NCBI RefSeq assembly: GCF_036227325.1
Contig: NZ_CP109467.1
Location: 930,001 to 994,000 of the forward strand
Direction: 5' to 3'
Origin: Streptomyces sp. NBC_01465
GTDB taxonomy: Bacteria; Actinomycetota; Actinomycetes; Streptomycetales; Streptomycetaceae
DNA: 64,000 bases
Position 1 is the stretch's first letter, and each line of letters opens with the position of its first letter. A model generated the notes under the pieces. It was given only the letters and a program-made list of their open reading frames with translations, was not told the DNA's origin and did no database searches. The position numbers and the translations under genes are program-made. This document shows, piece by piece, positions 59,709-62,701 of this stretch.

Positions 59709-60554
59709 TCAGGACTTGACGGCGCCGAAGGAGGGGATGACCGAGCCGTCGGCGTACGTCTTCTCGATGTACTGCTTCACCTCGTCGGAGTTGAGCAGCT
59801 TCTCGAGCTTCTTCACGCGCGGGTCGTCCTCGTTGCCCTTCTTGACGGCGAGGAAGTTGGCGTTGGGGTTGTTGGTGCCCGACTCCAGGACCAGGGCGTC
59901 CTTCGACGGCTTGAACTTCGCTTCCAGAGCGTAGTTGCCGTTGATGACCGCGGCGGTGACGTCGTCCAGGGAGCGGGGGGTCTGCGCCGCCTCGATCTCC
60001 TTGAACTTCAGGCCCTTGGCGTCCTTGATGTCGGACACGGTGGCGGTGGAACCCGCGCCGTCCTTGAGCGTGATGATGTCGTTGGCAGCGAGCAGCTGGA
60101 GTGCGCGGCCCTCGTTGACGGCATCGTTGGGGATGGCGATGGTGTCGCCGCTCTTCAGCTCCGAGGCCTTGGTGTCCTTCTTGGAGTACAGGCCCATCGG
60201 CTCGACGTGGACGTTCTCGACGCCCACGATGTGCGTGCCGTTCTTGGCGTTGAAGTCCTTGAGGTACGCGGCGGTCTGGAAGTAGTTGGCGCCGATGTCA
60301 CCGTCCTCGAGGGCGGTGTTCGGAGTCACGTAGTCCGTGTACTCCTTGATCTCCAGCTTGAGACCGGCCTTGGCAGCCAGGTTGTCCTTGACGAACTTGA
60401 GGATGTCGGCGTGCGGGGTGGGGCTGGCGCCCACGACCAGGGCGTCGTCCGGGGACGAGCCGGCCTTGCCGGAGTCCGAGCCGCAGGCGGTCAGACCGAT
60501 GGAGAGGGCGGCGACGGCCACGGCGGTGGCGGAGAACTTGACAGAAGTACGCAC
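59709..60554 (-). CDS. metQ: Methionine-binding lipoprotein of the MetNIQ transporter
   Basis: 281 residues from GTG 60554. The signal ends with lipobox LTAC (Cys24). The mature part has the NlpA/MetQ pattern: ALVVGASPTPHADILKFV, EIKEYTDYVTPNTALEDGDIGANYFQT, IAIPNDAVNEGRALQLL. It presents methionine to MetI. Third gene of metN-metI-metQ. Confidence 0.94.
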   Translation of the reverse strand: MRTSVKFSATAVAVAALSIGLTACGSDSGKAGSSPDDALVVGASPTPHADILKFVKDNLAAKAGLKLEIKEYTDYVTPNTALEDGDIGANYFQTAAYLKDFNAKNGTHIVGVENVHVEPMGLYSKKDTKASELKSGDTIAIPNDAVNEGRALQLLAANDIITLKDGAGSTATVSDIKDAKGLKFKEIEAAQTPRSLDDVTAAVINGNYALEAKFKPSKDALVLESGTNNPNANFLAVKKGNEDDPRVKKLEKLLNSDEVKQYIEKTYADGSVIPSFGAVKS

Positions 60555-60629: not shown

Positions 60630-61340
60630 TCAGGCGGTACGGAGCCGCAGACGGCCGAGCAGGCGCGTCTCGGCGCGACCGGTGCCGCGCTTGGCCAGTG
60701 CGCTCACGATCAGGTCGCCGATGAGCTGGACCAGGACCACGAGGACCACCAGGAGGGCGACCGTGACGAGCATGAAGTCCGTCTCGAAGCGCTGGTATCC
60801 GTAGCTGATCGCGAGCGCGCCGAGACCGCCGCCGCCGACCGTGCCCGCCATGGCCGAGTAGCCGATGAGGGCGATGATCGTGGTGGTGATGCCGGAGACG
60901 AGCGACGGCAGGGACTGCGGCAGCAGCGCCTTGCGTACGACGGTCCAGGTGGAGCCGCCCATCGACTGCACGGCTTCGACCAGTCCGTGGTCGACCTCGC
61001 GCACGGCGGTCTCCACGAGGCGGGCGAAGAACGGGATCGCGCCGATGGAGAGCGGCACGATCATCGCTTCCGCGCCCAGGCTGGTGCCGACGACCATGCG
61101 CGTGAAGGGGATCAGCGCCACGAGCAGGATCAGGAAGGGGAAGGAGCGCGCGACGTTGACGACGAAGCCCACGACCTTGTTGACCGGGGTGTTCTGCAGC
61201 AGTCCACCGCGGTCGGTCAGGACGAGGAGCACGCCCAGCGGCGTACCGACAACTACGGCTATGAGTGCCGACCAGCCGACCATGTAGAGGGTGTCCCAAC
61301 ACCCCTGGGACAGCAGCGGCTGCATCTCGGACCAGGTCAC
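60630..61340 (-). CDS. metI: Methionine ABC transporter permease
   Basis: 236 residues from GTG 61340 with five or six helices (VGWSALIAVVVGTPLGVLLVL, VVGFVVNVARSFPFLILLVALIPF). The EAA loop is LVEAVQSMGGSTWTVVRKALLP. It overlaps the metN stop by four bases and is followed by metQ. Confidence 0.94.
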   Translation of the reverse strand: MTWSEMQPLLSQGCWDTLYMVGWSALIAVVVGTPLGVLLVLTDRGGLLQNTPVNKVVGFVVNVARSFPFLILLVALIPFTRMVVGTSLGAEAMIVPLSIGAIPFFARLVETAVREVDHGLVEAVQSMGGSTWTVVRKALLPQSLPSLVSGITTTIIALIGYSAMAGTVGGGGLGALAISYGYQRFETDFMLVTVALLVVLVVLVQLIGDLIVSALAKRGTGRAETRLLGRLRLRTA

Positions 61341-62374
61341 TTGGCACCTTCCTTCACCAGGACGGGCGCGTCTTCGCCCGCCACTTCGACCTGGAGCCCC
61401 TGCTCGCGCAGGAATCCGATCGGTACGACGTTCTCCTCGAAGCGGCCGGGCAGTTCGATCCGCATCCGGCCGATCTGCTTGCCGGCGACGGTGTCCATCG
61501 CGGCGCCCAGGATGGAGATGTCGATGTTGTACGTACGGGAGAGCTGCGAGATCACCGGCTGCGTCGCGGCCTCACCGTGGAAGGTGACGTCGACGACGGT
61601 GCGGTCGGCGCCGGACGGTTCGCCGCCGACCGGGAAGAGCGTGCGGGCGAGCTCGGAGCCGGGCGTCGCGAGGATCTCGCTGACCGTGCCGGACTCGACG
61701 ATCCGGCCGCTCTGCATGAGCGCGGCCGAGTCGCAGACCGTCTTGACGACGTCCATCTCGTGCGTGATGAGCAGAACCGTCAGTCCGAGCTGCTGGTTGA
61801 GGTCGCGCAGCAGCTGGAGGATCGAGCGGGTGGTCTCGGGGTCGAGGGCGCTCGTCGCCTCGTCGGAGAGCAGCACCTTCGGGTCGCCTGCGAGTGCGCG
61901 GGCGATGCCGACGCGCTGCTTCTGACCGCCGGAGAGCTGCGCCGGGTAGGACTTCGCCTTGTCGGCGAGGCCGACCAGGTCGAGGAGTTCGAGTGCCTTG
62001 CGGGTGCGGTCGCGACCCGTGACGCCGAGGATCTCCAGCGGCAGCTCGATGTTGTCCTGCACCGTGCGCGAGGACAGCAGGTTGAAGTGCTGGAAGACCA
62101 TGCCGATACGGGTGCGTGCCGCGCGCAGTTCCTTGCCCGCGCGCGGGCCCCGTCCCGCCAGCGCGGTGAGGTCGACGCCGTCGACGGTCACCGTGCCCGT
62201 GGTGGGGCGCTCGAGGAGGTTGATGCAGCGGATCAGCGAGGACTTGCCGGCGCCGCTCTGGCCGATGACGCCGTACACCTCGCCCTCTCGGACATGAAGG
62301 TCGACGCCGTCCAGGGCGGTGACCTCTCGGCCGCGCGAGGCATAGACCTTCGTCAGGCCGGTGGTGGTGATCAC
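61337..62374 (-). CDS. metN: Methionine ABC transporter ATP-binding protein
   Basis: 345 residues from GTG 62374. Walker A is GQSGAGKS (38-45), the ABC signature is QLSGGQKQRVGIARAL and Walker B is VLLSDEATSALD. The C-terminal NIL domain (about 270-345; DVTFHGEAATQPVISQLSRTYN) binds methionine and inhibits transport when the cell is replete. The in-frame extension to 62428 is not conserved. It is the first gene of the operon, 170 bases downstream of a Cys/Met-rich leader ORF. Confidence 0.95.
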   Translation of the reverse strand: MITTTGLTKVYASRGREVTALDGVDLHVREGEVYGVIGQSGAGKSSLIRCINLLERPTTGTVTVDGVDLTALAGRGPRAGKELRAARTRIGMVFQHFNLLSSRTVQDNIELPLEILGVTGRDRTRKALELLDLVGLADKAKSYPAQLSGGQKQRVGIARALAGDPKVLLSDEATSALDPETTRSILQLLRDLNQQLGLTVLLITHEMDVVKTVCDSAALMQSGRIVESGTVSEILATPGSELARTLFPVGGEPSGADRTVVDVTFHGEAATQPVISQLSRTYNIDISILGAAMDTVAGKQIGRMRIELPGRFEENVVPIGFLREQGLQVEVAGEDAPVLVKEGAK

Positions 62375-62701
62375 AGAAAATCCGTCACTGTCGAGTGCGC
62401 GGCGCGATGTCCGCCGGGCACGGGGCATTCGTCTGGAAGCGCAGCACGGCCACAGCAGTGGCTACCTGAAGTACCTGGAGGCAATTCGTGCGCGGGGCAG
62501 GCTCTTGGTCTCGCTTCGGGGCGCGGGACTCAGGCGGGGACCCTCAGAAGTCGCACATTCGACACATACAACGAGCACCGGGCGTCATCATCGCCTCGGT
62601 CGCAAGGGTGCGGCTGCTCGTCGTGGTCATGCAGGCAAGTAAACCAGACATGAGTACGGGGCCAGGGAGGATGTCCGAATAGCGGACGCCCTCGTCTCAC
62701 G
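62375..62701. other. Leader region of metNIQ
   Basis: 327 bases between metN and the HAD gene. It holds the 15-codon leader ORF (62544-62591), a small hairpin GCCAC/GTGGC (62449-62462) between that ORF and metN, and GTCCG/CGGAC (62673-62687) just beyond the HAD stop side. No SAM riboswitch signature was found. Confidence 0.5.
62544..62591 (-). CDS. Predicted 15-residue Cys/Met-rich leader peptide of metNIQ
   Basis: Read leftwards from ATG 62591 the ORF gives MMTPGARCMCRMCDF and stops with TGA at 62546-62544. Four of 15 residues are Met (two at the start) and three are Cys, a strong excess of sulfur amino acids. GACCGAGG lies just before the two ATG codons, with best spacing to the second. 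The position 170 bases before metN suggests that ribosome stalling at Met/Cys codons controls expression of the methionine transporter. No matching attenuator hairpin is obvious. Translation is not proven. Confidence 0.5.
   Translation of the reverse strand: MMTPGARCMCRMCDF

Follow-up and report, generated by a model that had tools for sequence, protein, structure and literature searches.

Cys-rich leaderless short open reading frames (ORFs) of mycobacteria were reportedly described by Canestrari in 2020. Published accounts place such leaderless, Cys-containing ORFs ahead of mycobacterial sulfur genes (PMC9094748, PMC13236596, PMC1262725) and, as far as these accounts go, they are the nearest working kind to the leader studied here, with which they share a short ORF carrying several Cys codons near its stop. 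Our leader differs in that its Cys codons are mixed with Met and Arg codons instead of forming a run, and in that it precedes a methionine importer and lies inside a conserved folded RNA. The LEU element of actinobacterial leuA also has its leader codons inside a conserved RNA structure but, as outlined in PMC1262725, it relies on Leu codons, a pseudoknot and base pairing to the Shine-Dalgarno sequence of leuA; a pairing of that sort is not established for our leader. The leader itself has been in print since 2021 as metL (SLIV_29928) of S. lividans TK24, credited to Met and Thr in PMC8079986 (Table 4), and the first-pass annotation of our locus, which had considered a mixed Met/Cys leader of metNIQ to be new, was thus anticipated. 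According to its entry there, S. lividans metL occupies the same place before metNIQ, encodes a near-identical peptide (MSTTSDRTPATEATTTPGARCMCRRMCAF), has a leaderless transcription start and lacks a typical Rho-independent terminator; the entry covers one strain, reads the peptide as Met/Thr-rich and does not deal with conservation, a role of Cys, a covarying RNA or an operator. The literature searched yielded no other publication on this leader. The ORF is therefore already known, and what is new is its RNA (covarying structure and a post-stop hairpin), an NdgR-like operator, its distribution and the reading of Cys as the more enriched signal.

The window, a stretch of 64,000 nt from Streptomyces sp. 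NBC_01465, indeed carries the methionine transporter operon metNIQ, all on the minus strand like every feature described below: metN (61337-62374), recognised by ORF, family and homologue comparison from its conserved GTG start (VITTTGLTK), and metI (60630-61340) and metQ (59709-60554), recognised from the ORF list and NCBIfam. MetI scores above its NCBIfam cut-off, and MetN and MetQ are best hits but fall below theirs. The longest MetN ORF begins at an ATG (62428) without counterpart in relatives, and conservation points to the GTG at 62374 as the start.

Upstream lies an ORF of 28 codons plus TGA (MTTTSSRTLATEAMMTPGARCMCRMCDF, 62630-62544), which homologue comparison identifies as the same gene as S. 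lividans metL. From its stop to the metN GTG we measured 169 nt, in agreement with the roughly 170 bases given earlier. The 15-codon ORF originally proposed as the leader (62591-62544, MMTPGARCMCRMCDF) exists, and its four Met and three Cys had been counted correctly, but it is merely the 3' half of the longer frame, whose conserved start is 13 codons further upstream, at 62630. The Met codons at the shorter start are not conserved (of 84 homologues of 28 codons, 8 have Met14 and 21 have Met15), and the GAGG taken for its ribosome site is part of conserved Glu-Ala codons and of the RNA stem P3. A further in-frame ATG at 62651, which would place MSGLLAC ahead of the leader, was rejected: it lies upstream of the -10-like element and is not general among relatives. 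By composition alone the 15-codon ORF is mildly unusual, as, when the 327-nt intergenic stretch was shuffled 2000 times with dinucleotides preserved, 23 shuffles gave a match (an ATG-initiated ORF, 8-45 codons long, containing three or more Cys and, beyond the start, six or more Cys plus Met), and it is because of its conservation that we judge it real.

For this comparison 110 loci were fetched with MetI, 80 (the best of 108) from named genome contigs and 30 from a 61-genome genus sample; after two (L024, L106) were dropped, 108 usable metN upstream regions remained, mostly from Streptomyces and five from other named genera. A short ORF of 26-40 codons precedes metN in all 108 (107 by pattern, L078 by eye), and 61 of an additional 62 Streptomycetaceae regions (8 of the same genus and 54 of other genera, some repeating genomes of the first set) carried the leader ORF. 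These loci share ancestry, so the counts are not independent. Both the frame and the Met/Cys codons, the features whose conservation the first-pass annotation had suggested comparing, hold across the Streptomycetaceae loci examined. One metN upstream region (L164) keeps the CGAATGTG end, and with it the 3' motif, without the promoter and start, and looks like a decaying copy of the leader.

A covariance model of the element matched 142 of 150 genus genomes, in single copy except for one genome with two, and, in a sample of the order, 128 of 132 same-genus genomes and none of 15 from two other families; both surveys used stricter filters, by which weak matches were lost. Direct peptide search found the leader in 27/28 same-genus and 18/93 other-genus genomes, and where the metN region of other genera was inspected directly, a leader with a diverged N-terminus was present. 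Neither the motif nor the promoter-ATG unit was seen before metN in 19 genomes of other families, a subset of the 25 such genomes with a MetI match (25 regions, six genomes having been fetched twice and one region being only 46 nt long), in which metN shows 44-60% identity and is perhaps not an orthologue in every case. A search of a plasmid collection gave no match. Two genomes (G001, G005) have the leader element and no MetI match at E 1e-70; in both, parts of metNIQ may be missing, or the operon may be divergent or split. Three metL-type leader peptides matched no NCBIfam family, the models of the mycobacterial kind (NF042936, NF042933 and NF042934) included, whereas the putative cysI leader of the window's own genome (L238, MSGTGIALVSRRHVDLGRVSSAICPAR), likewise a short ORF before a cysteine-pathway gene and unrelated in sequence, matches NF042934 above its cut-off. 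Upstream of this cysI leader we noticed a GTCCGCATTCTGGAT stretch by eye.

The N-terminal half of the peptide is very variable between genera, while the 3' end is nearly fixed: CGAATG[TC]G occurs in 167 of 169 leaders, here as CGA-ATG-TGC (Arg-Met-Cys, 62553-62561, including Cys codon 26), the third codon being sometimes Arg. In 163 of 170 regions that were usable for a test employing neither an ORF nor a Cys criterion (136 distinct sequences), the distance from the promoter-linked ATG to CGAATG took 12 different values, all of them multiples of three, in 136 of the 136 distinct sequences, and no in-frame stop intervened. As a non-coding control, the offset from the stop to hairpin P4 was spread over the three frames (80/23/20). 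A frame kept through insertions and deletions is hard to account for without translation; the comparison thus indicates that the frame is under selection, and the leader is almost certainly functional and translated.

The start of this frame is tied to a promoter. A -10-like element, TTTACT (62638-62643), lies 7 nt before the leader ATG and, among the leaders generally, 6-7 nt before it. Among the 108 leaders identified independently of this pattern, 106 have TGNTTWAN no more than 20 nt from the ATG; overall 165 of 169 do, 59 of the 169 having themselves been found with a similar pattern; a simple sigma-70 scan gave no promoter or consensus. Promoter and ATG, as judged from this conservation, form one unit, and since the ORF starts 7 nt past the -10-like element the leader is probably leaderless, consistent with the transcription start that PMC8079986 reports at the leader ATG in S. 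lividans. A leaderless 28-codon ORF probably fits better than a 15-codon ORF initiated from a Shine-Dalgarno sequence.

The ORF also forms a structured RNA. RNAalifold on 108 sequences, with pair counts, predicted a three-way junction within the ORF, made of stem P1 (5' strand 62616-62624, 3' strand 62568-62576, the latter overlapping Cys codon 21) and stem-loops P2 (62601-62612) and P3 (62577-62600), followed by hairpin P4 past the stop (62510-62527). P4, which shows double changes, follows a pattern present in 125 of 169 leaders and absent in 44; here it reads CCCGC-GCCCCGAA-GCGAG, with one mismatch, and its commonest form is CTCGC-GCCCCGAA-GCGAG. One further one-mismatch match to P4 in the same genome, at a histidine-kinase-like locus, was judged to be chance, and a pairing of CCCU in the P2 loop with AGGG past the stop was discarded by eye, as the loop varies (e.g. 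L020, L025), GAGGG is constant and there is no covariation. A further hairpin (P5, 62395-62421), directly before the metN start region, was seen by folding and in an alignment of 113 mainly Streptomyces sequences, where one pair is G-C in 104 and A-U in 6, the remaining pairs being less regular. Directly 5' of P5 there is a second CGAATG (62426-62431, GACGAATGCCCCGTGCCC), recurrent in many of the Streptomyces metN leaders compared.

In an alignment of 35 of 37 representatives, 94.1% of cells were paired and 8 pairs showed double changes (17 cells), with none of 500 shuffles as high; the covariation score of 0.073 exceeds that of every slid structure (0.048 at most), although some slid structures show as many as 7 doubly changed pairs, and pair types are no more numerous than in shuffles (16 vs 17.8). 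The structure was derived from largely the same sequences as those tested, which favours it. Taken singly, the fold of the window's leader is unremarkable against shuffles (z -1.48), and mean folding z-scores are -1.86 in the mainly Streptomyces set (102) vs -0.98 in the other-genus set (44). Kitasatospora-type leaders fold differently, so the junction is not family-wide; comparison shows it, built from the ORF's own sequence, in Streptomyces and in some of the sister genera. Summing entropy across codons 2-28 in 84 genomes gives 9.05, 10.33 and 6.17 at codon positions 1, 2 and 3 for the leader, vs 8.26, 8.41 and 22.39 for metN. With third positions lowest in entropy, the leader is constrained at the nucleotide level in these 84 genomes, which we attribute to the ORF sitting in a covarying three-way-junction RNA.

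These features lead us to propose that metL is a leaderless cis-regulatory leader peptide for metNIQ, a ribosome-mediated attenuator sensing mainly Cys-tRNA, a reading to which we assign a probability of about 0.65. The earlier idea that the leader senses sulfur amino-acid supply survives in that such a leader peptide is the best explanation of the locus, and its 15-codon start with Shine-Dalgarno initiation is not supported. A ribosome would initiate at the very 5' end of the nascent mRNA, on its AUG. While Cys-tRNA is plentiful, it would reach the stop and leave, the RNA would refold into P1-P3 and P4, and metNIQ would stay low; with scarce Cys-tRNA it would pause at the UGY codons 21, 23 and 26, keeping P1 open and shielding the RNA just downstream, and metNIQ would be expressed. 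Methionine would then be imported, possibly as a cysteine source. In the off state, Rho may terminate transcription in the spacer that precedes metN, or translation of metN may be initiated less. No terminator-like site was found in the window, and TTTT occurs in just 6 of 169 leader-metN spacers; the absence of an intrinsic terminator leaves a Rho-dependent or a translational output, and we give the two equal weight, each at slightly under an even chance. A crude stall model, in which a ribosome footprint was masked at the last Cys codon, gave mean openness of the metN start across 161 leaders of 0.415 for the free RNA, 0.436 with the ribosome at the last Cys codon and 0.424 with it at the stop; openness rose by more than 0.1 in 23 leaders and fell in 5, and in the window's leader it went from 0.37 to 0.47. 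The mean shift is 0.02, so we do not claim release of the Shine-Dalgarno sequence, and a model of its sequestration was set aside because folding left the metN start without a clear change. A long-range pairing between TGTCGA in the leader and TCGACA before metN is suggestive (103 of 167 show complementarity of at least 6 nt, as do about 15% of shuffles), yet it was rejected, being lost without compensation in the violaceusniger-type clade.

Which amino acid the leader would sense can be judged from its composition. The Cys codons stand near the stop, interspersed rather than in a run: codon 21 (TGT, 62568-62570) and codon 23 (TGT, 62562-62564) encode Cys in 81 and 76 of the 84 leaders of 28 codons, and codon 26 is divided between Cys (65) and Arg (19). 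Set against four proteins of the window (1,090 residues), the 134 distinct peptides that bear the motif are about 20-fold enriched in Cys (11.4% vs 0.55% of residues) and about 5-fold in Met, start excluded (8.0% vs 1.5%). At least two Cys lie within the last 16 residues of 130 of 136 distinct peptides, fewer than two in 6 of the 134 motif-bearing ones, and at least two Met in 113 of the 136. The same leader could instead report on Met-tRNA, or on Met and Cys jointly, as the name metL implies; the operon encodes a methionine importer, PMC8079986 points in its metL entry to Met and Thr, and Met25, found in 83 of the 84 leaders, exceeds every Cys codon in conservation. With one Met codon, the ATG in CGAATG, as conserved as any residue, some role for Met is conceivable. 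Against Met as the principal signal, besides its lower enrichment, stands the absence of Met22 in 23 of the 84 leaders in which Cys21 and Cys23 are so widely retained; the S. violaceusniger-type leaders (RCRCRMC) have lost Met22 and retained all Cys. Shortage of Met, moreover, affects translation initiation everywhere. We therefore rank Cys first and Met second, regarding Cys as the probable main signal and a leader governed by Met-tRNA, alone or jointly with Cys, as rather unlikely. In S. coelicolor, the oxidative-stress results in PMC4991794 list metN at 5.24-fold alongside sulfate-to-cysteine genes.

Two other explanations would make the peptide secondary. In one, sensing falls to the RNA itself, as a three-way junction acting like a riboswitch; its covariation, its highly conserved third codon positions and its usually single-copy occurrence in genus genomes would suit this, but the frame is maintained across 12 ATG-to-motif distances, and other genera lose the fold and yet keep Arg-Met-Cys, promoter and start. 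Rfam, too, provides no match: nothing in the window reached gathering score, and the absence of a SAM riboswitch had been noted correctly beforehand. Below threshold there were just two hits, an sR1 look-alike, at 20.8 bits against a gathering score of 45, and a weaker one attributable to chance. Searching 15 metN loci from other families likewise returned nothing. We thus consider an RNA sensor improbable. The other explanation, that a transcription factor, perhaps NdgR, regulates at an upstream palindrome and the leader merely tunes, seems to us very improbable, although the site is conspicuous. A 17-bp inverted repeat, CGTCCGCTATTCGGACA (62672-62688), is conserved 5' of the leader as a candidate operator; the palindrome TGTCCG-N5-CGGACA occurs ahead of the promoter with at most one mismatch in 109 of 160 regions (0.15 expected), and an NdgR-like 15-bp core in 122 of 160 (0.2 expected; 120 of 156 distinct). 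In S. coelicolor, the portions of PMC4340878 dealing with targets place NdgR at cysteine and branched-chain amino-acid genes. Nevertheless, the 38 regions without the pattern still keep the leader, 'metN' is absent from the main text of PMC4340878, and our pattern is looser than the ChIP motif printed there. Membership of metNIQ in the NdgR regulon is a prediction only, and the operator was too unspecific as a regulon finder (35 genome sites with at most one mismatch vs 19 for the reversed pattern). NdgR control and attenuation by the leader are compatible and not mutually exclusive.

More speculatively, and in our view with rather low odds, the element might be a dual-purpose attenuator: its conserved three-way-junction RNA would both encode the leader peptide and be read through during its synthesis, and the near-invariant CGA-AUG-UGY would be a programmed slow site, making a cysteine-responsive methionine importer behind an NdgR-controlled promoter. 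The pattern of constraint, with the frame kept and third positions most conserved, offers a clean and testable case of an ORF and an RNA fold selected together. A leader once noted as Met/Thr-rich in one strain is shown to be an old, structured element and, if the attenuator reading is true, a translated RNA sensor would make the import of methionine depend on the supply of cysteine throughout a family of antibiotic producers.
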